A stretch of DNA of 64,000 nucleotides from assembly GCF_910596095.1 (NCBI RefSeq), contig NC_056545.1, positions 101,001 through 165,000 on the forward strand. Direction: 5' to 3'. The notes below the pieces were generated by a model. That model was not told where the DNA came from. It made no database searches and saw only the letters and a list, made by a program, of their open reading frames with translations. A program made the position numbers and the translations under genes. Positions 17,477 through 58,549 of the stretch are shown in pieces. Every line of letters starts with the position of its first letter. Position 1 is the stretch's first letter. This DNA is from Thunnus maccoyii (taxonomy: Eukaryota; Chordata; Actinopteri; Scombriformes; Scombridae).

Positions 17477-20400
17477 TAATGTCAGTTTCCTGAGTCTGAC
17501 CCTGAATGCACCACAAAAACAGCTTTAAATCAAACATAACTTTTAATGTACAGACTCTAAAGGGATGCTCTGAGCGCGCTCAGTGCGCCGTGTTGTGAGC
17601 GCGCTCAGTGCGCCGTGTTGTGAGCGCGCTCAGTGCGTACCTGAGGTTCCTGTGGAAGAGCCAGGACTCGTGTTTGAAGTGAAGCTGTTCCAGGTACTCC
17701 AGAGGGATCCCCTGTTCCTCCTCCCTGCCGCGGTGCAGCAGCCGCTGCATACAGCGCTGAAACACACAGACACTCACCGTGAGCCTGAATGCACCACTGA
17801 CATATAATATGTTCAGGTGTAACTCTGTGACAGGTGTACTGCGGCAGTAGTACCGTCTCATCTCCGGTTGCTGAAGTTAATTTTGCTTTATTCTTCATTT
17901 CTGCAGATAATTACCAGCTGTTCGTTAAACCTTCACTAGTTCTGCTCAAACACTCGTTGCCGGGAAGCCGGGAGGCCGGGGCGGCCCTAAGCAGAAGCCC
18001 ACGGTACACCACCAACCAGTTCATGTTTCTAACTGGTTCTCCCCCCTCAGTAACACACCTGCTTGTGCTCTCTGATTATCGGCAGCTCCATAGTCAGAAA
18101 CGTGAAGTTATCGACAGCAGCAGCTATAGTTAAATGTATTCCTGGGACCAGAGCGGACGACACTGAATCACATTTAAACTGCTGGCTGAGAATAAACGTA
18201 AATATGAGACGATTGTTATTCACGTCGGTGGGAACGACTCCTGATTACACCAATCAGAGGTCACTAAGATCAATGCTGAGTCGGTTTGTTAATATGCAGA
18301 AACAATGTGGGACTCTGTAGTTTCCTCTGGACCGCTGCCTGATCTGACCAGTGATGTCATGTATAGTCACATGTCATCATTCAACCGCTGGCTGTCGAGG
18401 TGGTGTCCAGCAAACGATGTGGGCTTCATAGATAACTGGCAGACTTTCTGGGGAAGACCTGGTGGACTCTTGAACATTAGATCTCTGTCATCTGAAGCCG
18501 TATTAGTAAACGATCTAATCTCATATCATCATATTGATTGATTGTCTTACTGAAACCTGGCTGTGTCATGAAGAACATGTCAGTCTAAATGAATCCAGTC
18601 CTCCCAGTCATATTAATACTCACATTCCTCCAGACACTGGCCGAGGAGGAGGAGTCGCAGCCTCATTATCAACTCTAGACCTGAACTTCATTATAACTCA
18701 TTAGAAAGTCTTCAATCTCAGGACTCTTCCCACAGAGAGCAGGTCTGAACTCTTTCATCTACAGAGACCCAACGTTCCTCCATCAGCAGGAAAAACAGGA
18801 AGAAACCTCAAGCAGAACCGGACTCTAGGTGGCGCCGTCTGCCTCGACCGGATGGGTTGAGACAGAAAGAAGGAGAGAGACACAGAGAAGCACAACAACA
18901 ACAACAACAACAACAACAATAATAGTAGCTGAAGGTTTCCTGCGAGACCAGAAAGCACAAAAAACTCCGGGGAAGAAGCAAAGTTAGTGACATGCATTGA
19001 TGTTACATGAATGCATACAGATGGAGAGGAGGAGGAGGAGAGAGGAGCTCAGTGCATCATGGGAAGTCCACCAGTAGTCTAGGCCTATAGCAGCATAACT
19101 AAGGGCTGATCCAAGGCGAGCCTGGTCGGCCCTAACTATAAGCTTTATCAAAAAGGAAAGTTTTAAGCCTACTCTTAAACATAGAGAGGGTGTCTGCACC
19201 CCGGACTGAATCCGGTAGATGGTTCCATAGAAGAGGAGCCTGATAGCTGAAGGCTCTGCCTCCCATTCTACTTTTAAAGACTGTAGGAACCACCAGTAAG
19301 CTGCATACTGGGAGCACAGTGTTCTAGTGGGATAATACGGTATTATGAGCTCTTCAAGATATGATGAAGAGGTTTAATTACAGCTACTTTAAAGGACTGT
19401 GGTACATAAGACAGACTGATCATATCTAACTAAGGGTAAGACCTCCTCCAGCAGCCTAGTTGGGATGGGGTCTTAGAGACAGATTGATGGTTCAATGAAG
19501 AAATCGTTGAAGTTAGTTCAGGAAGGTCGATTAGAGGAAAATCTTAAACGTAGAGCGTCAGCCTCGTGGAGGGACGTTGGGTCTCTGTAGATTAAAGAGT
19601 TCAGTCTAGACCTGCTCTGAGAGACCGGCAGCAGCAGCTTTATTACCTGTGGTTGTGCTCTCAGGTAGATGATGGCGTCCAGGGCGATGTCGCTCTCAAA
19701 CTGGTTCAGTAACCAGGTGTGCCAGTCTTGATAAACGCTCCACTCCGTGTCTGTGAGGTTACCACACTCAAACAGGTTGGACGCAAACACGTACCTGCAC
19801 ACACACAGTACACAGCGTTACTGCAGTACCGTCCGCTGTACCGCCTGTACTCACCTGTCTCAGGTGTGTCTTTACCTGTCGGAGTAGACGGAGCGCTCGT
19901 AGAACTGAACAGGTTTCTCTGCCTGCTGGACTTTGACTGACGGACACTGAAGCTGAGAACGAACTCTGCTGAGACACGCATAGCTCTGAGAGACAGACAG
20001 GTAGAGAGAGACAGACAGGTAGAGAGACAGACAGGTAGAGAGAGACAGACAGGTGGAGAGACAGACAGGTGGAGACAGACAGGTAGAGAGACAGACAGGT
20101 AGAGAGAGACAGACAGGTAGAGAGAGACAGACAGGTAGAGAGAGACAGACAGGTAGAGACACAGACAGGTAGAGAGACAGACAGGTAGAGAGAGACAGAC
20201 AGGTAGAGAGAGACAGACAGGTAGAGAGAGACAGACAGGTAGAGAGACAGACAGGTAGAGAGAGACAGACAGGTAGAGAGAGACAGACAGGTAGAGAGAC
20301 AGACAGGTAGAGAGAGACAGACAGGTAGAGAGAGACAGACAGGTAGAGAGAGACAGACAGGTAGAGAGACAGACAGGTAGAGAGAGACAGACAGGTAGAG

Positions 20401-23400
20401 AGACAGACAGGTAGAGAGAGACAGACAGGTAGAGAGAGACAGACAGGTAGAGAGAGACAGACAGGTGGAGAGACAGACAGGTAGAGAGACAGACAGGTAG
20501 AGAGAGACAGACAGGTGGAGAGACAGACAGGTGGAGACAGACAGGTAGAGAGAGACAGACAGGTGGAGAGACAGACAGGTAGAGAGACAGACAGGTAGAG
20601 AGACAGACAGGTAGACACAGACAGGTAGCGAGAGACAGACAGGTAGAGAGAGACAGGTAGACACAGACAGGTAGAGAGAGACAGGTAGAGAGAGACAGAC
20701 AGGTGGAGACAGACAGGTAGAGAGAGACAGGTAGACACAGACAGGTAGAGAGAGACAGGTAGAGAGACAGACAGGTAGACACAGGCAGGTAGAGAGACAG
20801 ACAGGTAGAGAGAGACAGACAGGTAGAGACAGACAGGTAGAGAGAGACAGGTAGAGAGACAGACAGTTAGTTGTGGTGAAACAGCTCCATCTGTTGATCT
20901 CATCACCACCTGAGATGTTTAGTAGGAGGAGTCATGTGGATCAGGGGGAGGGTCATGTGGATCAGGGGGAGGGGTCATGTGGATCAGGGGGAGGGTCATG
21001 TGGATCAGGGGGAGGGGTCATGTGGATCAGGGGGAGGGGTCATGTGGATCAGGGGGAGGAGTCAGCATGTAGTCAGGGGGAGGAGTCATGTGGATCAGGG
21101 GGAGGGGTCATGTGGATCGGGGGGGTCATGTGGATCGGGGGGGGTCATGTGGATCAGGGGGAGGGGTCAGCATGTAGTCAGGGGGAGGAGTCATGTGGAT
21201 CAGGGGGAGGGTCATGTGGATCAGGGGGAGGGGTCATGTGGGTCAGGGGGAGGGGTCAGCATGTAGTCAGGGGGAGGAGTCATGTGGATCAGGGGGAGGG
21301 GTCATGTGGATCGGGGGGGTCATGTGGATCAGGGAGAGGGGTCAGCATGTAGTCAGGGGGAGGAGTCATGTGGATCAGGGGGAGGGTCATGTGGATCAGG
21401 GGGAGGGGTCATGTGGATCAGGGGGAGGGTCATGTGGATCAGGGGGAGGGGTCATGTGGGTCAGGGGGAGGGGTCATGTGGATCAGGGGGAGGAGTCAGC
21501 ATGTAGTCAGGGGGAGGAGTCATGTGGATCAGGGGGAGGGGTCATGTGGATCGGGGGGGTCATGTGGATCGGGGGGGGTCATGTGGATCAGGGGGAGGGT
21601 CATGTGGATCAGGGGGAGGGTCATGTGGATCAGGGGGAGGGGTCATGTGGGTCAGGGGGAGGGGTCAGCATGTAGTCAGGGGGAGGAGTCATGTGGATCA
21701 GGGGGAGGGGTCATGTGGATCGGGGGGGTCATGTGGATCAGGGAGAGGGGTCAGCATGTAGTCAGGGGGAGGAGTCATGTGGATCAGGGGGAGGGTCATG
21801 TGGATCAGGGGGAGGGGTCATGTGGATCAGGGGGAGGGGTCATGTGGGTCAGGGGGAGGGGTCAGCATGTAGTCAGGGGGAGGGGTCAGCATGTAGTCAG
21901 GGGGAGGAGTCATGTGGGTCAGGGGGAGGGGTCATGTGGATCGGGGGAGGGGTCATGTGGATCGGGGGAGGGGTCAGCATGTAGTCAGGGGGAGGGGTCA
22001 GCATGTAGTCAGGGGGAGGAGTCATGTGGATCAGGGGGAGGGGTCATGTGGATCAGGGGGAGGGGTCAGCATGTAGTCAGGGGGAGGGTCATGTGGATCA
22101 GGGGGAGGAGTCATGTGGGTCAGGGGGAGGGGTCATGTGGGTCAGGGGGAGGGGTCATGTGGGTCAGGGGGAGGGGCCAGCATGTAGTCAGGGGGAGGGT
22201 CATGTGGATCAGGGGGAGGAGTCATGTGGGTCAGGGGGAGGGGTCATGTGGATCAGGGGAGGAGTCATGTGGGTCAGGGGGAGGGGTCAGCATGTAGTCA
22301 GGGGGAGGGTCATGTGGATCGGGGGGAGGGGTCATGTGGATCAGGGGGAGGGGTCAGGCGTACCTGGAAGGTGTAGGACCAGCGGCTGGGTTTGTCATAG
22401 AGCATGTGCAGCAGGTTTCCTCCGCTCTTCTGAGACGAACTCAACTCCTGCAGACAGTTTAACATCAGCACTTTATTCTGAAAGGACAGTGATGTCATTG
22501 TGTGACATCATCAGGTGTGACATATTCACCTGGTAAACGTCGTCGCTGTCGTTCTGGACGTTGCACCATTTCCCGATGGGCTCAGGTATCACCTCCCAGT
22601 CCTCCGACGCTGCCTGCAGGAGGCGCACAAACGTAGACTTACCTGCAGCTGAGAGACAGACAGGTGAGTCAGAGAGAGACAGACAGGTGAGTCAGAGACA
22701 GACAGGTGAGTCAGAGAGAGACAGACAGGTGAGTCACAGACAGACAGGTGAGTCAGAGAGAGACAGGTGAGTCAGAGACAGACAGACAGGTGAGTCAGAG
22801 ACAGAGAGACAGGTGAGTCAGAGACAGACAGACAGGTGAGTCAGAGACAGAGAGACAGGTGAGTCAGAGACAGACAGACAGGTGAGTCAGAGAGAGACAG
22901 ACAGGTGAGTCAGAGACAGACAGACAGGTGAGTCAGAGACAGACAGACAGCTGAGTCAGAGACAGACAGACAGCTGAGTCAGAGACAGACAGACAGCTGA
23001 GTCAGAGACAGACAGACAGGTGTGGTTTGTGATGATGATTTGTGTTTAGAAACAGTCAAAATTCAGTAACTCTGTATTCATGTAGGCTAATAAAGTTTAT
23101 GGTAGTAAAGTTTATAGATTATAAATATGATGTATTTTACAGTTTATAGATTATAAATATGATGTATTTTACAGTTTATAGATTATAAATATGATGTATG
23201 TTACAGTTTATAGATTATAAATATGATGTATGTTACAGTTCATAGATTATAAATATGATGTATGTTACAGTTCATAGATTATAAATATGATGTATTTTAC
23301 AGTTTATAGATTATAAATATGATGTATTTTACAGTTTATAGATTATAAATATGATGTATGTTACAGTTTATAGATTATAAATATGATGTATGTTACAGTT

Positions 23401-25966
23401 CATAGATTATAAATATGATGTATTTTACAGTTTATAGATTATAAATATGATGTATTTTACAGTTTATAGATTATAAATTTGATGTATTTTACAGTTTATA
23501 GATTATAAATTTGATGTATGTTACAGTTCATAGATTATAAATATGATGTATTTTACAGTGTATAGATTATAAATATGATGTATGTTAGTGTATAGATTAT
23601 AAATATGATGTATTTTACAATTTATAGATTATAAATATGATGTATTTTACAATTTATAGATTATAAATATGATGTATTTTACAGTGTATAGATTATAAAT
23701 ATGATGTATTTTACAGTTTATACATTATAAATATGATGTATGTTACAGTTCACAGATTATAAATATGATGTATGTTACAGTTCATAGATTATAAATATGA
23801 TGTATGTTACAGTTCATAGATTATAAATATGATGTATTTTACAGTTTATAGATTATAAATATGATGTATGTTACAGTTTATAGATTATAAATATTATGTA
23901 TGTTACAGTTCATAGATTATAAATATGATGTATTTTACAGTTTATAGATTATAAATATGATGTATTTTACAGTTTATAGATTATAAATATGATGTATGTT
24001 ACAGTTTATAGATTATAAATATGATGTATTTTACAGTTCATAGATTATAAATATGATGTATTTTACAGTTTATAGATTATAAATATGATGTATGTTACAG
24101 TTTATAGATTATAAATATGATGTATTTTACAGTTTATAGATTATAAATATGATGTATGTTACAGTTTATAGATTATAAATATGATGTATGTTACAGTTTA
24201 TAGATTATAAATATGATGTATTTTACAGTTTATAGATTATAAATATGATGTATGTTACAGTTCATAGATTATAAATATGATGTATTTTACAGTTTATAGA
24301 TTATAAATATGATGTATGTTACAGTTTATAGATTATAAATATGATGTATTTTACAGTTCATAGATTATAAATATGATGTATTTTACAGTTTATAGATTAT
24401 AAATATGATGTATGTTACAGTTTATAGATTATAAATATGATGTATTTTACAGTTTATAGATTATAAATATGATGTATGTTACAGTTTATAGATTATAAAT
24501 ATGATGTATTTTACAGTTTATAGATTATAAATATGATGTATGTTACAGTTTATAGATTATAAATATGATGTATGTTACAGTTTATAGATTATAAATATGA
24601 TGTATGTTACAGTTTATAGATTATAAATATTATGTATGTTACAGTTCATAGATTATAAATATGATGTATTTTACAGTTTATAGATTATAAATATGATGTA
24701 TTTTACAGTTTATAGATTATAAATATGATGTATGTTACAGTTTATAGATTATAAATATGATGCATTTTACAGTTCATAGATTATAAATATGATGTATTTT
24801 ACAGTTTATAGATTATAAATATGATGTATGTTACAGTTTATAGATTATAAATATGATGTATTTTACAGTTTATAGATTATAAATATGATGTATGTTACAG
24901 TTTATAGATTATAAATATGATGTATGTTACAGTTTATAGATTATAAATATGATGTATTTTACAGTTTATAGATTATAAATATGATGTATGTTACAGTTTA
25001 TAGATTATAAATATGTATGTTACAGTTCATAGATTATAAATATGATGTATGTTACAGTTTATAGATTATAAATATGATGTATTTTACAGTTTACAGATTA
25101 TAAATATGATGTATGTTACAGTTTATAGATTATAAATATGTATGTTACAGTTTATAGATTATAAATATGATGTATGTTACAGTTTATAGATTATAAATAT
25201 GATGTATTTTACAGTTTACAGATTATAAATATGATGTATGTTACAGTTTATAGATTATAAATATGTATGTTACAGTTTATAGATTATAAATATGATGTAT
25301 GTTACAGTTTATAGATTATAAATATGATGTATGTTACAGTTTATAGATTATATTTAGATATACTGTGTATAATAGTTAATATAAGTAAGTACATTATATA
25401 ATATTAACTGTGTTTGATTATGAACGCACTACTTTGTTTATCTGATGGGTTTCTTGGCGCCAATCCGCTACGTGACGGCGGGACAGAGAACCGACAGAGC
25501 TGACCGGCCTCCATCTTACTGCCCGCGCATCAGCACAGCCAAACAAAATGGACACAAAGTCATGAACCTGAAATACATCAAACTGCACCGTTTACCGGAG
25601 TTTAACGGGAAGAACCGGGACTGAACTCACAGTTTACCGGAGTTTAACGAGAAGAACCGGGACTGAACTCACAGTTTACCGGAGTTTAACGGGAAGAACC
25701 GGGACTGAACTCACAGTTTACCGGAGTTTAACGGGAAGAACCGGGACTGAACTCACAGTTTACCGGAGTTTAACGGGAAGAACCGGGACTGAACTCACAG
25801 TTTACCGGAGTTTAACGGGAAGAACCGGGACTGAACTCACAGTTTACCGGAGTTTAACGAGAAAACCGGGACTGAACTCACCGATGTTTCCCTCGATGGA
25901 GATCTTCTTCTCTCTGCGGGAGAAACCGGCGGGAACACCGCGCGCTCTCTTCGGTGGAGTCGCCAT
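17180..25966 (-). CDS. dck: Deoxycytidine kinase, complete, 8 coding exons
   Basis: dCK transfers phosphate from ATP or UTP to deoxycytidine, deoxyadenosine and deoxyguanosine, the first step of nucleoside salvage. Exons: 25966-25882, 22648-22530, 22447-22364, 19985-19876, 19794-19647, 17756-17641, 17397-17298, 17206-17180. All boundaries are GT-AG and phases join to 262 residues (human about 260). The start MATPPKR matches the family. The P-loop GNIAAGKST (26-34) is split by intron 1. Also present are the general-base region EPI (Glu51), CLSRVR (Arg103, base contact), ERSVYSD (126-132) and the Arg-rich lid [17 protein letters not shown]. Ser73 in SSSQK corresponds to the human Ser74 phosphosite. 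The end EFLATL is typical. Intron 5 holds LINE pieces, and introns 1 and 3 hold kilobases of minisatellite starting at splice sites. From memory human DCK has 7 exons, so one intron may be extra here. Confidence 0.97.
17401..17470. repeat. (CA)n tract abutting the dck exon 7 acceptor
   Basis: About 35 CA dinucleotides. On the gene strand this is (TG)n followed directly by CAG and the exon, so the microsatellite replaces the usual pyrimidine tract. Length variation could affect exon 7 recognition. Confidence 0.9.
17568..17640. repeat. Three-copy 24-bp GC-rich repeat at the dck exon 6 donor
   Basis: Three copies of a unit containing the palindrome GAGCGCGCTC followed by AGTGCG and CGTGTTGT. 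On the gene strand the repeat starts 4 bases into intron 6 (GTAC then GCACTGAGCGCGCTC). Small, but it shows the same placement as the large arrays. Confidence 0.85.
17880..18680 (+). mobile_element. L2-like LINE fragment: ORF1 esterase-like domain and start of endonuclease
   Basis: Plus-strand frames read [32 protein letters not shown] and [20 protein letters not shown], the SGNH/esterase-like ORF1 of fish L2/CR1 elements (the usual GDS nucleophile motif is GSS here). After 18540 the frame [18 protein letters not shown] followed by [11 protein letters not shown] is the N-terminal part of the endonuclease. It lies in dck intron 5, opposite to the gene. Frameshifts and the changed motif show it is inactive. 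Confidence 0.8.
18690..19500 (-). mobile_element. L2-like LINE 3' fragment, copy 2, internally deleted
   Basis: The sequence repeats the 3' part of copy 1 (12230-12940) at high identity, including the reverse-strand C-terminus [20 protein letters not shown]. At about 19365 it jumps to sequence equivalent to about 14047-14230 of copy 1, so the catalytic RT core is deleted. It meets the plus-strand 5' fragment tail-to-tail in dck intron 5. Confidence 0.85.
19986..20872. repeat. 16/18-bp minisatellite forming the 3' end of dck intron 3
   Basis: About 50 units of GAGAGACAGACAGGTA with GAG-length and GGTGG variants. On the gene strand it reads TACCTGTCTGTCTCTC and abuts the exon 4 acceptor (CTCTCAG|AGC). 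The plus strand contains no CT between 19987 and about 20883, so the gene strand has no AG in that span. The long '[10 protein letters not shown]' frames here are artefacts. Confidence 0.95.
20925..22356. repeat. About 21-bp G-rich minisatellite at the start of dck intron 3
   Basis: About 65 units of GGGGGAGGGGTCATGTGGAT with variants: GGAGGAGTCATG, TCAGCATGTAGTC, and TCGGGGGGGTC. On the gene strand it begins about 8 bases after the exon 3 donor (CAG|GTACGCCTGACCCC). The G-runs on the plus strand could form G-quadruplexes. Recurrent blocks of several units indicate higher-order duplication. Confidence 0.93.
22649..23022. repeat. About 24-bp minisatellite at the dck exon 2 acceptor
   Basis: Units of GACAGACAGGTGAGTCAGAG and longer or shorter forms. 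On the gene strand it reads CTCTGACTCACCTGTCTGTC and ends directly at the CTCTCAG|CTG acceptor. No CT on the plus strand from 22651 to about 22950, so the gene strand is AG-free for about 300 nt. Confidence 0.92.
23085..25355. repeat. 32-bp AT-rich minisatellite in dck intron 1
   Basis: About 71 tandem copies of a 32-bp unit containing ATAGATTATAAATATGATGT then ATTTTACAGTT or ATGTTACAGTT. Variation is mostly TTTT/TGTT, TTTA/TTCA and a few shortened units (ATATGTATGTT near 25015, 25140 and 25260). It is strongly AT-rich and intronic. Confidence 0.95.
25580..25881. repeat. 42-bp minisatellite carrying the dck exon 1 donor
   Basis: About seven copies of a 42-bp unit containing CAGTTTACCGGAGTTTAACG and GAAGAACCGGGACTGAACTC. 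On the gene strand each unit contains GTGAGTTCAGTCCCGG, the same sequence that forms the authentic exon 1 donor (CATCG|GTGAGTTCAGTCCCGG). The exon-proximal copy is the real splice site and the rest are copies downstream in intron 1. Confidence 0.93.
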
Positions 25967-27690: not shown

Positions 27691-27825
27691 CTATAGGTTT
27701 TAGAAGTTCTATGGGTTCTAGAGGTTCTACAGGTTCTGCATGTTCTATATGTTCAATATATTCTATAGGTTCTGTATGTTCTGTATGTTCTATAGGTTCT
27801 ACAGGTTCTGTATGTTCTGACATAC
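27690..27825. repeat. Short GTTCTATAG/GTTCTGTAT repeat upstream of pfdn1
   Basis: About a dozen 9-10-bp units (GTTCTATAG, GTTCTACAG, GTTCTGTAT) immediately upstream of the pfdn1 promoter. Low-complexity and non-coding. Confidence 0.8.
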
Positions 27826-27829
27826 ATAC

Positions 27830-27954: not shown

Positions 27955-30900
27955 ATGGCAGCGCCCATAGATCTGGAGTTGAAGAAGGTACCGCGCGTTA
28001 AACTCCCCTGCTCTTACCTGTCTGTCTGCTCTTACCTGTCTGTCTGCTCTTACCTGTCTGTCTGCCGCTACCTGTCTGTCTGCCGCTACCTGTCTGTGTT
28101 TAATGAAGAGCCGACACACTAACAGCTAACAGCCGAGCTAACTGCAGCACGAGGAGCTAACCCTGATTCATTACACTCACGCGAGCAGTATCAAGTACCT
28201 GATGTCCACGTGCAGCTGATTATCAGTAACTGTTCTCAGTGTTCAGAGTTAAACTGAGTGTCTGTGAGTCACAGAAACCTGCAGCTCAGCCCGGTCAGTG
28301 AACGCATCAGTACAGATGTGTGTGTGTCAGTGAACGCATCAGTACAGGTGTGTGTGTGTGTCAGTGAACGCATCAGTACAGATGTGTGTGTGTCAGTGAA
28401 CGCATCAGTACAGATGTTTGTGTGTCAGTGAATGCATCAGTACAGATGTGTGTGTGTCAGTGAATGCATCAGTACAGATGTTTGTGTGTCAGTGAACGCA
28501 TCAGTACAGATGTGTGTGTGTCAGTGAACGCATCAGTACAGATGTTTGTGTGTCAGTGAATGCATCAGTACAGATGTGTGTGTGTCAGTGAACGCATCAG
28601 TACAGATGTTGTGTGTTGTATTCTGTCCTTTATTTTATGAAACACCAGAACAGGAAATGAAGTTTTTAAAGGGCTTTTTTTTTGCCCTGATGAAATGTTT
28701 CAAATGATGGAATGGATGAAGGTTGTCCAGGTGTTTTTAATCAGAGCGAGACCTCCTGCAGGTGAAAGCTGTCCAGGTGTTTTTAATCAGAGCGAGACCT
28801 CCTGCAGGTGAAAGCTGTCCAGGTGTATTTAATCAGAGCGAGACCTCCTGCAGGTGAAAGCTGTCCAGGTGTATTTAATCAGAGCGAGACCTCCTGCACG
28901 TGAAAGCTGTTCAGGTGTATTTAATCAGAGCGAGACCTCCTGCACGTGAAAGCTGTTCAGGTGTATTTAATCAGAGCGAGACCTCCTGCACGTGAAAGCT
29001 GTTCAGGTGTATTTAATCAGAGCGAGACCTCCTGCACGTGAAAGCTGTTCAGGTGTATTTAATCAGAGCGAGACCTCCTGCAGGTGAAAGCTGTTCAGGT
29101 GTATTTAATCAGAGCGAGACCTCCTGCACGTGAAAGCTGTTCAGGTGTATTTAATCAGAGCGAGACCTCCTGCAGGTGAAAGCTGTCCAGGTGTTTTTAA
29201 TCAGAGCGAGACCTCCTGCAGGTGAAAGCTGTCCAGGTGTTTTTAATCAGAGCGAGACCTCCTGCAGGTGAAAGCTGTCCAGGTGTTTTTAATCAGAGCG
29301 AGACCTCCTGCAGGTGAAAGCTGTTCAGGTGTATTTAATCAGAGCGAGACCTCCTGCAGGTGAAAGCTGTTCAGGTGTATTTAATCAGAGCGAGACCTCC
29401 TGCAGGTGAAAGCTGTTCAGGTGTTTTTAATCAGAGTGAGACCTCTCTCTCCGCAGGCGTTCTCGGAGCTGCAGGTGAAGATGATCGATACGCAGCAGAA
29501 AGTGAAGCTGGCCGACCTGCAGATCGATCAGCTGACTCGTGTTCAGAAACATGCTAAGCTAACTCACGCTGAGATCACCACGCTGCCTGACAACACACGG
29601 CTGTATGAGGGCGTCGGACGCATGTGAGTCTCCATGGCAACGGCCAGGTTACCTGTGACACACACACACACAAACCTAATGATCATATTATTGATTAAAG
29701 TTGGCGTGTGTAGAAGTCACAGCTTTGTTCCACCTATAAGTTTACAGTGATTACACTTCATTCTGTCCCTGAGATACTACATTACCCATGAGCCTCGGCT
29801 GCTGCTGCTGCTATGGAGAAGAAGCCAGTCATAGGTGTGAATCCAAACGCTTGGTTACTGAAGTTGTAAACAAAACGTGTCGCCATGGTTACTGAAGTCA
29901 CTCAAAGTGAACTGATTTAATCTGCATAATCTTCAACTTCTGATCACTGCCAGCGGTGCATGTGATCAAATTCTAAGCTCTGTGATTGGTTGTTTCTGGC
30001 TGAAATGCACCTTGGGAGTCGTAGTTAACTTTTTACTGAAGAATCAGAGATTTATTAACAGCTGTTGTTTTGTTGAGTTTAATGCTGATCAGAAAATTGA
30101 AACATCTGCTGCCGTCGCACATCTGCACATCTGTACATCTACACATCTGTACATCTGCACATCTGTACGGCACAAACAGAGAAAATCAGAGTCTCCTTTA
30201 AGAATGCACGTCTGTGATTGGACGTCTGTTTATTGATAAAATTCCCAGTTACCATAAATCCTCTAAAAGTGTGCAGGACCTTTATTCACCTGAGTGCTCT
30301 TCATCAGACACACACCTGGATTTCTAAAGGTCACCTGTGTGTGTGTGTGTGTGTGTGTTTCAGGTTCATCCTGCAGTCGAAGGAGGAGATCAATAATCAG
30401 CTGACGGACAAACAGAAAACAGCTGATGAGAAGATCAAAGAACTTGAGGTACAAATAGACAAATACACACAATGAGTCAGGTATTGATCAGCGATCAGCT
30501 GGCTGAGCAGTTCATGTTATTTCAGTGGGTTTTTTTAAACGGCTGATCGGTGGTTCGATTCTCGACTCGTCCAGACGACACGTTCTGAAACGTGAGTCAA
30601 CGTCTGTGTCGTTGTCATGGAAACTGCAGGTAGCGTAGCGTAGCTCCTTTTAAGAAACAGGGCAGAGCGTAAGCGAGTGAGTGTCATAAAAATGTTCAGT
30701 ACAGACTACAGTGTCAGTAAATATACAGTACAGACTACAGTGTCAGTAAATATACAGTACAGACTACAGTGTCAGTAAATGTTCAGTACAGACTACAGTG
30801 TCAGTAAATATACAGTACAGACTACAGTGTCAGTAAATGTTCAGTACAGACTACAGTGTCAGTAAATATACAGTACAGACTACAGTGTCAGTAAATGTTC

Positions 30901-42899: not shown

Positions 42900-43079
42900 G
42901 TTGAAGGCTGAAAACATAAAATCAATAACAGTGATCAGAAGCTGCTGCTGTCGTCTGTTTTCATCTTCAGGCTTCATAAAACTGCAGAGTCACTCAACTT
43001 TTATCATGTTTGTGCTGCAGCCGTTTAAATATTAATAAACCAGAACTTTAAGGAAACAGAGCAGAACTTTAGTGTGTTA

Positions 43080-46013: not shown

Positions 46014-46105
46014 CTAGCTGACTTCAGTGTTTGTGTCTCGTCTCACCTGACTGAGCGTCACTCATCATCATCATCATCACCATCATCACCATCATCATCA
46101 TCATC

Positions 46106-46137
<32 letters not shown>

Positions 46138-46626
46138 CATCACCATCATCATCACCATCATCATCATCATCGTCACCATCATCATCACCATCATCATCAT
46201 AATCATCACCATCATCATCACCATCATCACTATCATCATCACCATCATCATCACCATCATCATCATCATCGTCACCATCATCATCACCATCATCATCATA
46301 ATCATCACCATCATCATCACCATCATCACTATCATCATCACCATCATCATCACCATCATCACCATCATCGTCACCATCATCATCATCATCGTCACCATCA
46401 TCATCATCATCATCACCATCATCATCACCATCATCATCATCATCGTCACCATCATCATCATCATCATCACCATCATCACTATCATCATCACCATCATCAT
46501 CACCATCATCATCATCATCATCATCGTCATTGTCAACTCTGCAGCTGCATGAGTCTGTTGGCCCCGCCCCCTCAGCTGTCAATCACTCTGAGGAGGAAAC
46601 ACACACTTTCAGTGGTCACAGTGTGT

Positions 46627-46680: not shown

Positions 46681-46682
<2 letters not shown>

Positions 46683-46830
46683 CACACTAAAGTTCTGGTT
46701 TATTAATATTTAAACGGCTGCAGCACAAACATGATAAAAGTTGAGTGACTCTGCAGTTTGATGAAGCCTGAAGATGAAAACAGACGACAGCAGCAGCTTC
46801 TGATCACTGTTATTGATTTTATGTTTTCAG

Positions 46831-49800
46831 CCTTCAACATGAGCAGAGTAGCTTTGAAACCCAGAGAGCAGGACGACGAGGACGACTTCTACGACTGCCA
46901 GGAGACTCTGGAGCCTCCAGACCGAAGACAGGACGCAGAGAGTGAGACAGGACGACAGGAGGAGGAGCAGGGCGACAGGCTGAAGGAGGAGGAGCAGGGC
47001 GACAGGCTGAAGGAGGAGGAGCAGGGCGACAGGCTGCAGGAGGAGGAGCAGAGCAACATCCTCACAAACCAGAGCGACGTCCTCATCAACCAGAGCGACG
47101 TCCTCACAAACCAGAGTGACGTCCTCATGAACCAGAGTGACGTCCTCACAAACCAGAGAGACGTCCTCACAAACCAGAGCGACGTCCTCACAAACCAGAG
47201 TGACGTCCTCATGAACCAGAGCTACGTCCTCATGAACCAGAGTGACGTCCTCACAAACCAGAGCAACGTCCTCACAAACCAGAGCGACGTCCTCATGAAC
47301 CAGAGCGACGTCCTCACAAACCAGAGCGACGTCCTCATGAACCAGAGTGACATCCTCACAAAGCAGAGAGACGTCCTCACAAACCAGAGTGACGTCCTCA
47401 TGAACCAGAGTGACATCCTCACAAACCAGAGAGACGTCCTCACAAACCAGAGCGACGTCCTCACAAACCAGAGCGACGTCCTCACAAACCAGAGTGACGT
47501 CCTCATGAACCAGAGTGACATCCTCACAAACCAGAGAGACGTCCTCACAAACCAGAGAGACGTCCTCACAAACCAGAGCGACGTCCTAACAAACCAGAGT
47601 GACGTCCTCACAAACCAGAGTGACGTCCTCATGAACCAGAGCTACGTCCTAACAAACCAGAGTGACATCCTCATGAACCAGAGTGACGTCCTCACGAACC
47701 AGAGAGACGTCCTCACAGACCAGAGTGACGTCCTCACAAACCAGAGAGACGTCCTCGCAAACCAGAGTGACGTCCTAACAAACCAGAGCGACGTCCTCAT
47801 GAACCAGAGCGACGTCCTCACAAACCAGAGTGACGTCCTAACAAACCAGAGCGACGTCCTCACGAACCAGAGCGACGTCCTAACAAACCAGAGCGACGTC
47901 CTCACAAACCAGAGTGACGTCCTCACAAACCAGAGCGCCGTCCTCACAAACCAGAGTGACGTCCTCATGAACCAGAGCGACGTCCTAACAAACCAGAGTG
48001 ACGTCCTCACAAACCAGAGCGACGTCCTAACAAACCAGAGCGACATCCTAACAAACCAGAGTGACGTCCTCATGAACCAGAGCGACGTCCTAACAAACCA
48101 GAGCGACGTCCTAACAAACCAGAGCGACGTCCTCATGAACCAGAGTGACGTCCTCACAAACCAGAGCGACGTCCTCACAAACCAGAGCGACGTCCTAACA
48201 AACCAGAGTGATGTCCTAACAAACCAGACTGATGTCCTAACAAACCAGAGTGACGTCCTCACAAACCAGAGCGACGTCCTCATGAACCAGAGCGACGTCC
48301 TCATGAACCAGAGTGACGTCCTCACAAACCAGAGTGATGTCCTCATGAACCAGAGTGACGTCCTCATGAACCAGAGTGACGTCCTCACAAACCAGAGCGA
48401 CGTCCTCATGAACCAGAGTGACGTCCTCACAAACCAGAGCGACGTCCTCACAAACCAGAGCGACGTCCTCACAAACCAGACTGATGTCCTAACAAACCAG
48501 AGTGATGTCCTAACAAACCAGAGTGACGTCCTCATGAACCAGAGCGACGTCCTAACAAACCAGAGCGACGTCCTCACGAACCAGAGCGACGTCCTCATGA
48601 ACCAGAGTGACGTCCTCATGAACCAGAGTGACGTCCTCATGAACCAGAGTGACGTCCTCACAAACCAGAGTGACGTCCTCACAAACCAGAGCGACGTCCT
48701 CACAAACCAGAGCGACGTCCTCATGAACCAGAGTGACGTCCTTACAAACCAGAGCGACGTCCTCACAAACCAGAGTGACGTCCTCATGAACCAGAGTGAC
48801 GTCCTCACAAACCAGAGTGACGTCCTCACAAACCAGGGAGACGTCCTCATGAACCAGAGTGATGTCCTAACAAACCAGAGCGACGTCCTAACAAACCAGA
48901 GCGACGTCCTCACAAACCAGAGCGACGTCCTCACAACCCAGAGTGATGTCCTAACAAACCAGAGTGATGTCCTAACAAACCAGAGTGATGTCCTAACAAA
49001 CCAGAGTGACGTCCTCACAAACCAGAGCGACGTCCTCACAAACCAGGGAGACGTCCTCATGAACCAGAGTGATGTCCTAACAAACCAGAGCGACGTCCTC
49101 ACAAACCAGAGCGACGTCCTCATGAACCAGAGCGACGTCCTCACAAACCAGAGTGATGTCCTAACAAACCAGAGCGACGTCCTAACAAACCAGAGCGACG
49201 TCCTCATGAACCAGAGTGACCTCCTAACAAACCAGAGCGACGTCCTAACAAACCAGAGTGACGTCCTCATGAACCAGAGTGACGTCCTCACAAACCAGAG
49301 TGACGTCCTCACAAACCAGAGAGACGTCCTCATGAACCAGAGAGACGTCCTCACAAACCAGAGCGACGTCCTCATGAACCAGAGTGACTTCCTCACAAAC
49401 CAGAGTGACGTCCTCACAAACCAGAGCGACGTCCTCATGAACCAGAGTGACGTCCTCACAAACCAGAGTGACATCCTCAAGAACCAGAGTGACGTCCTCA
49501 CAAACCAGAGTGACGTCCTCACAAACCAGAGAGACGTCCTCAGGAACCAGAGTGATGTCCTCACAAACCAGAGCGACATCCTCAAGAACCAGAGTGATGT
49601 CCTCACAAACCAGAGTGACGTCCTCACAAACCAGAGAGACGTCCTCATGAACCAGAGTGACATCCTCACGAACCAGAGAGACGTCCTCACAAACCAGAGC
49701 GACGTCCTCACAAACCAGAGTGATGTCCTAACAAACCAGAGCGACGTCCTCACAAACCAGAGCGACGTCCTAACAAACCAGAGTGACGTCCTCACAAACC

Positions 49801-52800
49801 AGAGTGACGTCCTCAAGAACCAGAGTGACGTCCTCACAAACCAGAGTGACGTCCTCACAAACCAGAGAGACGTCCTCATGAACCAGAGTGACGTCCTCAC
49901 AAACCAGAGTGACGTCCTCACAAACCAGAGCGATGTCCTCATGAACCAGAGCAACGTCCTAACAAACCAGAGTGACGTCCTAACAAACCAGAGTGATGTC
50001 CTAACAAACCAGAGCGACGTCCTCATGAACCAGAGCGACGTCCTCACAAACCAGAGTGATGTCCTAACAAACCAGAGCGACGTCCTAACAAACCAGAGCG
50101 ACGTCCTCATGAACCAGAGCGAACTCCTAACAAACCAGAGTGATGTCCTCATGAACCAGAGCGACCTCCTCACAAACCAGAGCGACGTCCTCATGAACCA
50201 GAGTGACCTCCTCACAAACCAGAGCGACGTCCTCATGAACCAGAGTGACCTCCTAACAAACCAGAGTGATGTCCTCATGAACCAGAGCGACCTCCTAACA
50301 AACCAGAGCGACGTCCTCATGAACCAGAGCGACCTCCTCACAAACCAGAGCGACGTCCTCATGAACCAGAGTGACGTCCTCACAAACCAGAGTGACGTCC
50401 TCACAAACCAGAGCGACGTCCTAACAAACCAGAGTGACGTCCTAACAAACCAGAGTGATGTCCTAACAAACCAGAGTGATGTCCTAACAAACCAGAGCGA
50501 CGTCCTCATGAACCAGAGCGACGTCCTAACAAACCAGAGCGACGTCCTCATGAACCAGAGTGACCTCCTCACAAACCAGAGCGACGTCCTCATGAACCAG
50601 AGCGATGTCCTCATGAACCAGAGTGACCTCCTCACAAACCAGAGCGACGTCCTCATGAACCAGAGTGACCTCCTCACAAACCAGAGCGACGTCCTCATGA
50701 ATCAGAGCGACCTCCTAACAAACCAGAGCGACGTCCTCATGAACCAGAGCGACCTCCTCACAAACCAGAGCGACGTCCTCATGAACCAGAGTGACGTCCT
50801 CACAAACCAGAGTGACGTCCTCACAAACCAGAGTGACGTCCTCACAAACCAGAGCGACGTCCTCATGAACCAGTTACGTCCTCACAAACCAGAGCGACGT
50901 CCTCACAAACCAGAGTGACGTCCTCACAAACCAGAGCGACGTCCTCACAAACCAGAGCAATGTCCTCATGAACCAGTTACGTCCTCACAAACCAGAGCGA
51001 CGTCCTCATGAACCAGTTACGTCCTCACAAACCAGAGCGACGTCCTCATGAACCAGTTACGTCCTCACAAACCAGAGCGACGTCCTCATGAACCAGTTAC
51101 GTCCTCACAAACCAGAGCGACATCCTCATGAACCAGTTACGTCCTCACAAACCAGAGCAACGTCCTCATGAACCAGTTACGTCCTCACAAACCAGAGCGA
51201 CGTCCTCATGAACCAGTTACATCCTAACAAACCAGAGCGACGTCCTCATGAACCAGAGTGACCTCCTCACAAACCAGAGCGACGTCCTCATGAACCAGAG
51301 CGATGTCCTCATGAACCAGAGCGACGTCCTCACAAACCAGAGCGACGTCCTCATGAACCAGAGTGACCTCCTCACAAACCAGAGCGACGTCCTCATGAAC
51401 CAGTTACATCCTAACAAACCAGAGCGACGTCCTCATGAACCAGAGTGACCTCCTCACAAACCAGAGCGACGTCCTCATGAACCAGAGTGACCTCCTCACA
51501 AACCAGAGCGACGTCCTCATGAACCAGAGCGACCTCCTAACAAACCAGAGCGACGTCCTCATGAACCAGAGCGACCTCCTCACAAACCAGAGCGACGTCC
51601 TCATGAACCAGAGTGACGTCCTCACAAACCAGAGTGACGTCCTCACAAACCAGAGTGACGTCCTCACAAACCAGAGCGACGTCCTCATGAACCAGTTACG
51701 TCCTCACAAACCAGAGCGACGTCCTCACAAACCAGAGTGACGTCCTCACAAACCAGAGCGACGTCCTCACAAACCAGAGCAACGTCCTCATGAACCAGTT
51801 ACGTCCTCACAAACCAGAGCGACGTCCTCATGAACCAGTTACGTCCTCACAAACCAGAGCGACGTCCTCATGAACCAGTTACATCCTCACAAACCAGAGC
51901 GACGTCCTCATGAACCAGTTACGTCCTCACAAACCAGAGCGACGTCCTCATGAACCAGTTACGTCCTCACAAACCAGAGCAACGTCCTCATGAACCAGTT
52001 ACGTCCTCACAAACCAGAGCGACGTCCTCATGAACCAGTTACATCCTAACAAACCAGAGCGACGTCCTCATGAACCAGAGTGACCTCCTCACAAACCAGA
52101 GCGACGTCCTCATGAACCAGAGCGATGTCCTCATGAACCAGAGTGACCTCCTCACAAACCAGAGCGACGTCCTCATGAACCAGAGTGACCTCCTCACAAA
52201 CCAGAGCGACGTCCTCATGAACCAGAGCGACCTCCTAACAAACCAGAGCGACGTCCTCATGAACCAGAGCGACCTCCTCACAAACCAGAGCGACGTCCTC
52301 ATGAACCAGAGTGACGTCCTCACAAACCAGAGTGACGTCCTCACAAACCAGAGTGACGTCCTCACAAACCAGAGCGACGTCCTCATGAACCAGTTACGTC
52401 CTCACAAACCAGAGCGACGTCCTCACAAACCAGAGTGACGTCCTCACAAACCAGAGCGACGTCCTCACAAACCAGAGCAACGTCCTCATGAACAAGTTAC
52501 GTCCTCACAAACCAGAGCGACGTCCTCATGAACCAGTTACGTCCTCACAAACCAGAGCGACGTCCTCATGAACCAGTTACATCCTCACAAACCAGAGCGA
52601 CGTCCTCATGAACCAGTTACGTCCTCACAAACCAGAGCGACGTCCTCATGAACCAGTTACATCCTCACAAACCAGAGCGACGTCCTCATGAACCAGTTAC
52701 GTCCTCACAAACCAGAGCGACGTCCTCATGAACCAGTTACGTCCTCACAAACCAGAGCAACGTCCTCATGAACCAGTTACGTCCTCACAAACCAGAGCGA

Positions 52801-53100
52801 CGTCCTCATGAACCAGTTACATCCTCACAAACCAGAGCGACATCCTCATAAACCAGAGCGACGTCCTCAAGAACCAGAGCGACGTCCTCAGACCAGGACT
52901 CTTGCTCTCAGCTTGTCTTTTAGCTCTGTAAAGAGACGTTCAGGTGTCAGGTCTGATGCTGTAAATCAGAGTTTTGGTCACATTTGCAGGTTTCTGAGCT
53001 CCAGTTTATTTTCTGTTTTGTGTTTCAGAGTCGACGGCAGCAGAGTTTAACACTGATGGAAAAAGGCAACAGTCAGTTTAAAGCTGGAAGTAAGTACAAA
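46831..53100 (+). pseudogene. Truncated inverted copy of ttc1 (pseudogene)
   Basis: It starts with the same acceptor (TTTTCAG|CCTTCAAC) and ATG (46839) and encodes [11 protein letters not shown] through about four EEEQGDRL units. At about 47050 the coding sequence jumps into the 21-bp repeat, losing the exon end ([13 protein letters not shown]) and its donor. After the repeat the second coding exon follows (about 53032-53092, with CTGATG in place of CTGAAG, Lys to Met). All later TPR exons are absent and no promoter exon is adjacent. The frame stays open to 50918 only because 21 is divisible by three (LTNQSDV units). A functional product is unlikely. Confidence 0.85.
47055..52890. repeat. 5.8-kb 21-bp minisatellite (CAGAGCGACGTCCTCACAAAC)
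   Basis: About 270-280 copies of a unit whose core is AACCAGAGCGACGTCCTCAC, with CTCATG/CTCACA/CTAACA alternation and GAGTGA/GAGCGA variants. From 50870 a 39-bp variant containing AACCAGTTACGTCCTCAC appears. Blocks of about 800 bp recur (51240-51790 and 52060-52490 are near copies, also similar to 50560-50960). Forward and reverse frames are both open for about a thousand codons, so neither is evidence of a gene. Confidence 0.95.
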
Positions 53101-53857
53101 CCAGTATATAAACCAGTATAACCAGCCAAATTCATGATTTTGTTACCAAGTTTGATTTTGAGTAATTATGCATAAATGTAATGCAATATGATGATGTGAA
53201 ATAGATTCATTATGAACTACTGGAGTTGTGTTGATGTTAGAACATGAAGCGACACTGAAGCAGCAACTAGTGATTGAATCAGCTGGTTCATCAGCTCTCA
53301 GCTGTTCTTTAGTTTGTGGCCACACGTTTTATTGAAGTTTATTTTTATATCTTAATTTTCTACTTTGATATCAACCCTTCTGTGCGTCATCTGGTGAGAA
53401 CAATTCGTTTGTGGAAAATAAGAAAAATAGTCTGAATGAGAAGAGAAAATAATTATGATAAAAGCAAAAATCAGTAGACAAGAAGGGAGCAATAAAAGTG
53501 CTTCACATCAAAGATAAAATGAACATAAAAACATGTAAATGTACATCGGATGGAAAATAACTTGATAATATTACTAAACATAAAGTGAAAATGCAACATA
53601 GGATGCTTACTTCAGTGGTAAGTTGACATTTAATAAGTGAAAACTCAGACATACAATCTATAAATCAGCGTCTGGGTCTCTGATAAGCATAACAGAAGCT
53701 TTCCCAACAGACACAGACTCGCCGTTGGTCTCGTTTCACTGAAATAAGCCTCTTTCAGTTGAACCCAGAATGTTTTCACACAGCTTTAACCTCACTGTGG
53801 GTCTGATCTGTGTCGAAGCTGCCCTGAAAATACCCCCTCAGTGCTGCCGTGTGGTTA

Positions 53858-55182: not shown

Positions 55183-55227
<45 letters not shown>

Positions 55228-55324: not shown

Positions 55325-55540
55325 AACACACACACACACACACACACTGTAACCACTGAAAGTGTGTGTTTCCTCCTCAGAGTGATTGACAGCTGAGGGG
55401 GCGGGGCCAACAGACTCATGCAGCTGCAGAGTTGATGATGACGATGATGATGATGATGATGATGATGATGGTGATGGTGATGATGATGAAGAGTGACGCT
55501 CAGTCAGGTGAGACGAGACACAAACACTGAAGTCAGCTAG
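55325..55540. repeat. Block B', inverted partner of 46014-46680
   Basis: Reverse complement of block B: it starts in a (CA)n tract, contains CCAACAGACTCATGCAGCTG, a short GATGATGATG array (55433-55493), and ends CTTCAGTGT-complement GAAGTCAGCTAG. The trinucleotide array is about eight times shorter than in B. Confidence 0.88.
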
Positions 55541-55900
55541 GACTCCCAGGATGCATTTCACTAACTATCATCCAATCACAGAGCTTTAAAGGTTACTAAC
55601 CAGTTGACAGTCGTTGTTGTTGTTAGATGCAGCAGCTGAGCATCATGGGTAATGTAGTATTTACAGGCAGAACATCAACCTCCATGTTGTCATCACGACC
55701 TTCAATGAAATGTTTTATGGATCAGAAGATGAATTGATCAGTTAACTGAGAAAATGATCAGTGGATGGATGTTTATCGGAAACTCTCACTTCACTGCTCT
55801 TTTTACTGTCTTTGTTTCCGTGGTAACAGTGAGGGAGGTCATGTGATGAGTTAACTGATGTGTGTGTATGTGTGTGTGTGTGTGTGACCTTTGACCCCAG

Positions 55901-57075
55901 CTGCCTCTGCAGAGGTGCTGCCAGTGTCTGCAGTCAGCGGGAAGGAGGTGGTGCTGACCTCTGACCTGCAGAAGGGAAAGATAGAGGCCATAAGTCACGT
56001 CAACTGGGACCACAACAACGAGCGGCTGCTGAAGAAAAACAAAACCACATGTGACCACGGACGCTGCGACCTGCAGAAGGACGGCTCGCTGAGGTTCAAC
56101 CGCGTTCAGGCTGAAGACGCAGGAAACTATAGCGTGGAGGCGTTTGACAACACAGGGCAGTGTCTGCTGAAGAAACGCTTCCTGCTCACTGTGGAAGGTC
56201 AGAAGTACACACTACTGTACTGTAGTACACACTACTGTACTACAGTACACACTACTGTACTGTAGTACACACTACTGTACTGTAGTACACACTACTGTAC
56301 TACAGTACACACTACTGTACTGTAGTACACACTACTGTACTGTAGTACACACTATTATACAGTAGTACACACTATTATACAGTAGTACACACTATTGTAC
56401 ATTAGTACACACTATTATACAGTAGTACACACTAGTCTACTGTAGTGTGTACTACTGTCCTTTAGTAGAAATAGTAAAAGTATTCGTTCTCCTGCTTTAA
56501 AGCTTTACAGGTTTCAGTGTTTGAGTTTTATTTATTATTTATATATATTTTATATTATTATTTATTCCAGCTGTTGTTTATAAACAGTTTATTTATTATT
56601 TATATATATTTTATATTATTATTTATTCTAGCTGTTGTTTATAAACAGTTTATTTATTATTTATATATATTTTATATTACTATTTATTCCAGCTGTTGTT
56701 TATAAACAGTTTATTTATTATTTATATATACTTTATATTACTATTTATTCCAGCTGTTGTTTATAAACAGTCAGCTGGTTCAGTCCGACGTGTTTTTCAT
56801 GTGAATGTTTGTATGAAAAACAAACAAACAAAGTAAACATCAGTGTGACGTAACGCAGGAAGTATGAAAATCTCAGATGAGAATATATTTGCAACGTACT
56901 GCTGAATGTATCAATAACTGTCACTTCTGATAAATGATGATAATATTCTGACCGTCAGCAGCAGTCGTCCAGGTCAAAGGTCGATCAGCTGATCAGCTGA
57001 TCCTGATCAGCCCGTCGATCAGCTGATCAGCAGCAGTGATGAATCTCTGAGTGTTTGCTGTGTGTCAGCAGATGT

Positions 57076-57116
<41 letters not shown>

Positions 57117-58502
57117 GTTTGCTGTCGACTGTGTCGGTTTGCTTCCTCCTGATGTTTCTGCTGCTGATCTTCATCACCGTCTTCATCCTGAGGAGGAGGA
57201 GGAGCCAGAGGATGAGGACTGCAGGTACAGCAGCCAATCAGAGACAGTCTGAGCTCTGACATGAGCAAGAGGTTCATCTATAATCTCTGCAGATTAATAT
57301 TAATACAACATTATGAATTCAGTTCATTTCTATTTTTATTTATAAAACATCAAATCCCAACAGACGTTATCTCAGGACTCTAGGTGGCGCCGTCTGGAGG
57401 GAAAGGAGGGAGACACAGAGAAGCATAATAATAACAAAAACAACAACAACAACAACAATAGATACATGACTAGCAACAACAAACAGCAGCAAGGCCAGAG
57501 CCTGCATCCCAGATGCAGAGGAGGAGGAGGAGAGAGGAGCCCAGTGCATCATGGGAAGTCCCCCAGCAGTCTAGGCCTATAGCAGCATAACTAAGGGCTG
57601 ATCCAAGGCGAGCCTGGTCGGCCCTAACTATAAGCTTTATCAAAAAGGAAAGTTTGAAGCCTACTCTTAAACATAGAGAGGGTGTCTGCACCCCGGACCC
57701 AATCTGGTAGATGGTTCCATAGGAGAGGAGCCTGATAGCTGATAAATATAATTGGGTGTCATCTGCATAACAATGAACATTTATGGAGTGTTTCCTAATA
57801 ATATTACCTAAAGGAAGCATATACAAGGTGAATAGAATTGGTCCAAGTACAGAACCTTGTGGAACTCCGTGTCTAACTTTTGCCTTCATGGAGGATTCAT
57901 CATTAACATGTACAAACTGAAATCAGTCTGATAAATAGGACTTAAACCAGCTTAATGCAGTTCCTTTAATGCCAATTAAATGTTCCAGTCTCTGCAAAAG
58001 GATTTGATGGTCAATTGTGTCAAATGCAGCACTAAGATCTAACAGGACAAGTATAGAGACAAATCCTTTGTCCGATGCAGTTAGGAGGTCATTAGTGACT
58101 TTCAACAGTGCTGTCTCTGTGCTATGATGCCTCTAAATCCTGACTGAAAATCCTCAAATAAACTATTGTTATGTAGAAAGTCACATAACTGATTAGAGAC
58201 TGCTTTCTCAAGGATCTTAGAGAGAAATGGAAGGTTAGATATAGGTCTATAATTGGCTAAAACACCTGAATCAAGAGTAGGCTTCTTAAGAAGAGGTTTA
58301 ATTACAGCTACTTTAAAGGACTGTGGTACATAGCCTGTTACTAAAGACAGATTGATCATATCTAGTAAAGAAGTGCTCACTAAGGGTAAGGCTTCCATGT
58401 GATTAATCTGATCTCCTGCTGCAGGACCCACGGAGGAAAATGTTTACATGACGATGCACAGTCACCATGGCAACAACAAGAAAGAGGAGGAGTGTGATTA
58501 TG

Positions 58503-58549
<47 letters not shown>

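Follow-up and report, generated by a model that had tools for sequence, protein, structure and literature searches.

Minisatellite arrays at splice sites near a Thunnus maccoyii chromosome end and a recurrent pyrimidine module at splice acceptors

Tandem repeats lying close to splice sites or to chromosome ends have been described in amphioxus and in human. In amphioxus, minisatellites named "mirages" occur at the intron-exon boundaries of the Adh3 and globin genes; their length is unstable, and they were proposed as a source of repeat-containing introns (PMC3087553). Intron 7 of human factor VII (F7) harbors a series of 37-bp repeats that are highly similar to each other, with the authentic donor in the first repeat, and normally only the most upstream donor is used (PMC6627357). 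Human variable number tandem repeats (VNTRs) with units longer than 15 bp and a GC content above 60% show a 21-fold enrichment in the outermost 5 Mb of chromosomes (PMC7608644), and tandem repeats in UBC and VCX3A carry dual-specific AGGT splice sites, offering a route to new introns (PMC10809524). Here, we analyzed a 64-kb stretch of the Thunnus maccoyii genome in which minisatellite arrays abut the splice sites of dck, pfdn1, ttc1, an SLC22 gene and an immunoglobulin (Ig) receptor gene. We found a short module, (Y)ACCTGTCTGTCTCTC, that recurs on many contigs at the 3' splice sites of genes unrelated to one another, with the pyrimidine strand as the sense strand. On balance, we lean towards a reading in which minisatellites in unstable chromosome ends would be seeded by the branch point and polypyrimidine tract of the 3' splice site.

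The window, by which we mean the whole stretch analyzed, corresponds to C13:101001-165000 (NC_056545.1) and lies 101-165 kb from the contig end in a 782-Mb genome of 54 contigs; positions without a contig prefix are those of the window. Tandem Repeats Finder (TRF) returned 109 rows, which merged into 58 arrays covering 30.7 kb of the 64 kb, and the GC content per 2 kb ranged from 0.27 to 0.57. The exon ends of the five genes were set by reading frame together with GT/AG, and acceptor gaps were counted from the array edge to the intron end, AG included. A PDB match to dCK (E 6e-110) identified dck, and Pfam supported pfdn1 (prefoldin), ttc1 (TPR) and the receptor (Ig). The name SLC22 is presumed, with seven similar loci in the genome as its support, and a Pfam scan of the concatenated SLC22-like exons outside the window returned no family; the other gene and exon names that lack a database match are likewise presumed. 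Arrays were present in 16 of the 22 introns of these genes, and six introns were array-free.

The original prediction held that arrays repeatedly begin at splice sites in unrelated genes, and all ten junctions that it cited indeed lay within 20 bp of an array edge, to within a few bases of where it had placed them. Across the 16 array-bearing introns, an array edge was found within 20 bp at 15/32 ends, compared to 6.00 when the identical arrays were thrown at random into the identical introns with intron length and array fill fixed (0/20,000 runs reached 15), confirming that the association exceeds chance. In this test, the excess was seen at donors (7/16 versus 2.98, P = 0.009) and at acceptors (8/16 versus 3.02, P = 0.001). 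It was also seen when only units of at least 9 bp were kept (12/28 versus 4.14, again reached in 0/20,000 runs), and it persisted when each gene was left out in turn (P ≤ 0.0021). A stricter test, which makes no placement assumptions and treats the gaps as exchangeable within each intron holding at least two arrays, gave a weaker signal, with 13/22 terminal gaps of 20 bp or less versus 8.48 expected (P = 0.0041). The mean rank of the terminal gaps was 0.350 versus 0.500 (P = 0.0096).

The prediction had further assumed that arrays placed at random would mostly fall in the interior of introns. This is true, but the null is too loose: since the introns are short or nearly filled by arrays (97% of dck intron 3), chance alone already brings 6.00 of the 32 ends close to an array. 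Left out of it were the 17/32 ends lying more than 20 bp from any array edge, for instance those of pfdn1 intron 3 (241 and 649 bp), ttc1 intron 1 (129 and 171 bp) and dck intron 5 (727 and 1135 bp), as well as near ends such as the ttc1 exon 4 acceptor (15 bp) and the receptor intron 4 donor (2 bp). The listed examples thus overstate an excess that is nonetheless real, and it is carried mainly by pyrimidine arrays at acceptors and by other kinds of arrays at donors. When the three pyrimidine acceptor arrays were removed and their length also taken out of the introns (units of at least 9 bp), the donor excess stayed (6/14 versus 1.77, P = 0.003).

The arrays discussed here are the following.

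25581 to 25881, minus strand: dck exon 1 donor array, 42-bp unit in 7.2 copies, beginning at the donor GT (gap 0), with GTGAGT repeated in the units.
22654 to 23022, minus strand: dck exon 2 acceptor array, 23-bp pyrimidine unit in 16.6 copies, gap 5 bp including the AG.
20925 to 22356, minus strand: dck exon 3 donor array, within intron 3, 22-bp unit in 65 copies, gap 7 bp.
19988 to 20870, minus strand: dck exon 4 acceptor array, 18-bp pyrimidine unit TCTACCTGTCTGTCTCTC in 50 copies, gap 2 (adjoining the AG), AG-free over 883 bp.
17571 to 17637, minus strand: dck exon 6 donor array, 25-bp unit in 2.7 copies, gap 3 bp.
17401 to 17470, minus strand: dck exon 7 acceptor array, (TG)35 microsatellite, gap 3.
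28008 to 28097, plus strand: pfdn1 exon 1 donor array, 18-bp pyrimidine unit in 5 copies, gap 20 bp.
28717 to 29445, plus strand: pfdn1 exon 2 acceptor array, 46-bp unit in 15.8 copies, gap 11 bp.
30690 to 33404, plus strand: two large arrays in pfdn1 intron 3, a counterexample, with gaps of 241 and 649 bp to the splice sites.
34877 to 35583, minus strand: ttc1 exon 7 acceptor array, 18-bp pyrimidine unit in 38 copies, gap 2 (adjoining the AG), AG-free over 707 bp.
36790 to 37135, minus strand: ttc1 exon 5 acceptor array, 44- and 65-bp units, gap 23 bp, in intron 4, which is 97% array.
40681 to 40723, minus strand: ttc1 exon 4 acceptor array, 21-bp unit in 2 copies, gap 15 bp.
42055 to 42164, minus strand: ttc1 exon 2 donor array, 21-bp unit in 5.2 copies, gap 30 bp.
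47049 to 52890, plus strand: the same 21-bp unit in the inverted duplicate of ttc1, 281 copies.
2810 to 4147, minus strand: SLC22 intron 1 arrays, in two blocks (2810-3395 and 3633-4147) making up 79% of the intron, donor gap 15, acceptor gap 35.
56204 to 56446, plus strand: receptor Ig-exon donor array, 20-bp unit in 12 copies, gap 6 bp.
57076 to 57115, plus strand: (CAG)13 just upstream of the receptor transmembrane exon and, as the exon was placed, 1 base inside it.
58505 to 58547, plus strand: receptor intron 4 donor array, (AC)n, gap 2 bp.

Arrays entered exons at only 2/86 exon ends, by 8 bases at a PDGFR-like exon (C13:221425) and by 1 base at the receptor CAG run, and a further search for exon overlaps deeper than 15 bases found none. 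Constraint thus also contributes to placement, since exon-entering arrays are rare, as expected if selection removes them. In the receptor (CAG)13 run, every unit is a possible acceptor, forming a NAGNAG chain.

The arrays at dck exon 4 and ttc1 exon 7 have a common sense-strand unit, the 18-mer TCTACCTGTCTGTCTCTC or close variants. This 18-mer has 172 exact matches in the genome; the 100 listed, on contigs C1 to C13, represent 20 loci, all of which were inspected. Among the matches listed, 16/20 loci adjoined an acceptor AG followed by an open exon, with the pyrimidine strand as the sense strand and a gap of -8 to +9 bp. Pfam or PDB supported 12 of these 16 exons, namely those of ITPR, ABCG1, the DAB2IP C terminus, gelsolin, GST, an Ig domain (Pfam score slightly under the family cut-off), a tyrosine kinase, a PTB domain, REP1/CHM, dck, ttc1 and a PDGFR-like Ig exon. 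The other four (C10:496k, C10:827k, C10:836k and C13:264.9k) were called from frame and splice signals only; no Pfam family was found for the exons at C10:836k and C13:264.9k, the latter giving only weak, unrelated PDB matches. The copy number of the 18-mer extended from one (gelsolin) and 2.8 (GST) up to arrays of more than 1.4 kb, and copies of the module ranged across loci from one to roughly a hundred. Before the REP1/CHM exon, the array (C13:664900-667400) repeats the acceptor AG, with CTCAG in many units, forming a row of possible 3' splice sites.

A second probe, the 17-mer ACCTGTCTGTCTCTCAG, which includes the AG, had 66 matches in the genome, compared to 0 for its backwards control. 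At nine of ten further loci found with it, an exon-like open frame followed; mostly one or a few copies were present in the 70 bases upstream. Six of these nine exons were supported by databases (mitochondrial carrier, thioredoxin, B-box, SGL, CDC27 and KIF20A, the last being marginally outscored by an engineered protein). The three others comprise a laminin-like and a MARK-like exon recognized by eye and one unnamed last exon; Pfam returned no family for two of them, the MARK-like peptide being below scannable size. The tenth locus lies 16 Mb inside C5, and no exon is found there.

We compared the sequences of 22 loci with tandem repeats masked, and one 37-bp match was all that they shared. 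The arrays therefore appear to have arisen independently, each in place, and not by copying of a single insertion. AG was absent from the sense strand of 12/16 acceptor arrays and from the last 100 bp of 14/16; this follows from the unit itself, and hence we make no claim of selection. The prediction that junction sequence seeds arrays is well supported for acceptors, where one sense-strand module recurs in unrelated genes from a single copy upward. For donors, it fared less well: the random-placement excess speaks for it (P = 0.009), but the exchange test does not (P = 0.19), and no common module was seen among donor arrays. We also considered the resemblance of the module's (U)ACCUG to the 5' end of U1, which could allow pairing with a donor; this idea was dropped because the motif had been ascertained through the chosen 18-mer.

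The prediction spoke of this genome as a whole and must be narrowed towards chromosome ends. Divided into 27 bins, C13:1-265 kb showed a minisatellite coverage of 25-66% in 20 bins and less in the other seven (three of them partly N), compared to 0.56% in a single 50-kb interior sample at C13:15.0 Mb. All but one of the 66 matches of the 17-mer lay within 4.1 Mb of a contig end, those on the small contigs C33 and C50 included. The 15-mer core CTGTCTGTCTCTCAG had 198 matches versus 38 for its backwards control; among the 100 matches listed, which represent 76 loci, multi-copy forms were found at 4/49 loci within 5 Mb of an end and at 0/27 farther in, with the lengths of C2, C3, C7 and C8 assumed. 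This pattern is compatible with a seed that would be widely present and would grow nearer the ends.

Array growth can also be followed in an inverted duplicate of ttc1 exons 2-3 (41088-43050 on the minus strand and 46688-53857 on the plus strand). One pair of flanks (52891-53857 and 42054-41088) is 99.48% identical over 967 bp, and the other (46688-46956 and 43050-42782) is 99.26% identical. Beside these flanks, the 21-bp array holds 281 copies in one duplicate and 5.2 in the other, indicating that its copy number changed after a recent duplication, although this array, 30 bp from the donor, is outside the 20-bp class. In the plus-strand copy (46688-53857), the coding repeat runs straight into the 281-copy array, and the exon 2 donor is missing. 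The inverted copies of the receptor 5' end differ as well, with a TCA/TGA repeat of 469 bp (46062-46530) in one and of 57 bp (55433-55489) in the other.

In the rest of C13:1-265 kb, we analyzed 21 recognizable exons with 42 ends, taken from a set of 51 called de novo and picked after the gaps were visible, thus not blindly. Eight gaps shorter than 20 bp were found in 734 bp of exposure versus 14 in 7,050 bp at 60-500 bp, a hazard ratio of 5.5 (P = 6e-4); differences between introns can inflate such a ratio. Since the hazard can fall with distance merely from differences in array density between introns, we prefer the within-intron tests. The pattern is most evident in a PDGFR-like intron (C13:222045-227217), where a 5,167-bp array ends 5 bp from the donor and 1 bp from the acceptor. 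When arrays were instead chosen by composition (at least 40 bp and at least 72% pyrimidine on one strand), 7/23 in C13:1-265 kb had an end no more than 8 bp away from the AG preceding an exon recognized by eye.

Seeding at the 3' splice site, the reading towards which we lean, would combine two factors. The chromosome ends of this fish would be strongly prone to minisatellite growth, perhaps driven by recombination, and the preferred seed would be the ~16-18 nt upstream of the acceptor AG, containing the branch point and the polypyrimidine tract and often matching (Y)ACCTGTCTGTCTCTC. This segment is short and quasi-periodic, with an internal CTGT/CT periodicity. Its duplication would add branch-point/pyrimidine modules upstream; because these usually carry no AG, no new AG should precede the genuine one, and little effect on splicing is expected. 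Starting from one copy, the array could thus expand to roughly a hundred, fill a compact intron and stop at the exon. Donor-side arrays would represent a separate excess without a common module, one of them (dck exon 1) repeating the donor itself.

Alternatively, arrays could be born anywhere in compact introns, without any seeding, and spread or drift until exon or splice-site constraint stops them. This would account for the 97% array fill of dck intron 3 and ttc1 intron 4, for the rarity of exon intrusion (2/86 ends) and for the fact that both intron ends are affected, donors also without pyrimidine arrays. However, the null in which intron length and array fill were fixed still gave 6.00 near ends versus 15, the module is already found at acceptors in single-copy and two- to three-copy forms, and one sense-oriented pyrimidine module at 16/20 loci, among the 18-mer matches listed, is not predicted; we regard this explanation as rather unlikely. 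The sense orientation at acceptors would also be expected if splice-site arrays were positively selected because they aid splicing, either through extra branch points or through RNA pairing that brings the intron ends together, and in the window one acceptor does carry a TG repeat and one donor an AC repeat. Yet the terminal arrays of dck intron 3 are both pyrimidine-rich on the sense strand, so that we expect little pairing between them, and the region abounds in minisatellites of many kinds; selection for splicing appears quite improbable. Spread of the module from acceptor to acceptor by a mobile element or by ectopic gene conversion between chromosome ends would explain why 16-18 bp recur in unrelated genes, mostly near contig ends. 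It is hard to reconcile with the single 37-bp match among the 22 masked loci (target-site duplications were not searched for), which led us to reject a mobile element as the leading reading, and the single-copy forms resemble ordinary polypyrimidine tracts; we judge such a spread very improbable.

Several observations weigh against seeding at the 3' splice site itself. Taken singly, ttc1 (2/10 versus 1.46, P = 0.44), pfdn1 (P = 0.06) and slc22 (P = 0.27) showed no significant excess, and when the gap-exchange test was split by end, donors were not significant (6/11, P = 0.19), with acceptors at the borderline (P = 0.056). The acceptor excess was no longer significant once the three pyrimidine arrays were removed (3/14 versus 1.77, P = 0.25), and the donor excess persists without the acceptor module, so that a further factor, which this reading does not name, places arrays at donors. 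Among the 18-mer loci, no call could be made at C6:34.23 Mb, C9:509k and C9:620k, and the C1 locus has no recognizable exon. Both probes were drawn from acceptor arrays, and other pyrimidine repeats lying away from genes would therefore be missed. The arrays at CHM and at a csf1r-like exon hold AGs 31 and 19 nt upstream, and AG avoidance was no stronger close to the acceptor, with a density of 4.0 per kb over the final 100 bp of the 16 arrays versus 4.9 per kb farther up, which gives no support to selection against new AGs. Finally, the 15-mer core is singly present in chromosome interiors, and with a 2-Mb limit its multi-copy forms, among the matches listed, were found at 2/34 versus 2/42 loci.

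Two array-filled introns are missing from paralogs. The 2,378-bp dck intron 3, 97% of which is array, is absent from both paralogs compared, the C19 dck and a C9 dguok-like gene, and the 1,388-bp SLC22 intron 1 (79% array) is absent from all seven similar loci, each of which reads through the position in an open frame. The SLC22 intron carries GACGAG|GTG (GACGAGGTG) at both junctions, and inspection of the dck intron 3 junctions revealed no clear duplication. From these comparisons, intron gain appears possible, and so does an ordinary gain followed by array growth. The relation could even be the reverse of seeding: tandem duplication within an exon would create a new intron, the array being the intron, in an intron gain of the mirage or tandem-duplication kind. 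This would explain why such introns have array edges at each of their two splice sites, why the paralogs lack these introns and why GACGAG|GTG occurs at both SLC22 junctions. It does not fit the lack of a clear duplication at dck intron 3, nor the other dck introns with terminal arrays, which coincide with breaks in the paralog matches, nor the intron positions of pfdn1 and ttc1, which match the human ones; we find it improbable. A broader proposal, in which acceptor signals near chromosome ends would serve as a minisatellite nursery, the module being amplified in place and exon stretches being turned into array-filled introns (dck intron 3, SLC22 intron 1), strikes us as doubtful. If true, it would mean that splice-site architecture and subtelomeric instability jointly reshape gene structure.

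Further features of the region were noted. The window dck (17207-25966) is not the only copy, and a sequence at C19:22.437 Mb looks nearer to human dCK over the stretch read. A dispersed repeat element occurs at 12120-14500, 18600-19520 and 57400-58400, within introns of dck (intron 5) and of the receptor (intron 3), and also at C13:219.2-220.9 kb, where it splits a pyrimidine array of the PDGFR-like gene. In ttc1, intron 3 holds a run of 26 G (40725-40750) and exon 2 an in-frame 27-bp coding repeat (42302-42782). Beyond the placed genes, an 830-bp array of the 9-bp unit TTCACTGGG spans 60295-61124.

The question of where minisatellites arise is long-standing, and a module found at many separate loci, almost always just inside the intron at an acceptor, opens it to direct tests. 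It would also tie unstable chromosome ends to intron length, to the tolerance of splicing and possibly to intron gain. In the titles and abstract openings surveyed, which concern minisatellites in relation to splicing signals, fish introns and intron boundaries, no such recurrent acceptor module was reported. As far as this search extends, one short acceptor module, present from a single copy to large arrays in many unrelated genes and mostly near chromosome ends, is new. In fish, Lin et al. (2016) reportedly found AC/GT repeats near both intron ends and proposed RNA pairing; those repeats are similarly close to both intron ends, but they are dinucleotides, whereas most arrays here are minisatellites.

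The nearest known systems are the amphioxus mirages, F7 intron 7 and the subtelomeric VNTRs. Like the VNTRs, the tuna minisatellites are concentrated near chromosome ends; however, the VNTRs are GC-rich, whereas many units here are AT- or pyrimidine-rich, and placement at splice sites does not appear in the abstract of that report (PMC7608644). The AGGT repeats similarly combine tandem repeats with splice signals, but they carry AGGT, in contrast to the 12/16 acceptor arrays that are AG-free here. The dck exon 1 array resembles F7 intron 7 in that it starts at the donor GT and its 42-bp units carry GTGAGT; F7 intron 7 is, however, a single human locus, whereas the dck exon 1 array is one of several donor arrays. 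With the mirages, our arrays share a minisatellite-like nature and a position at the 5' and 3' intron boundaries of unrelated genes, with 7/16 donors and 8/16 acceptors of the array-bearing introns lying within 20 bp of an array. Mirage units, unlike ours, span the boundary and copy exon bases, while here the exon was reached at only 2/86 ends (by 8 bases and 1 base) and one short pyrimidine module recurs at many acceptors, mostly near chromosome ends. SLC22 intron 1 and dck intron 3 fit the proposal made in amphioxus that new introns should hold mirage-derived repeats (PMC3087553).

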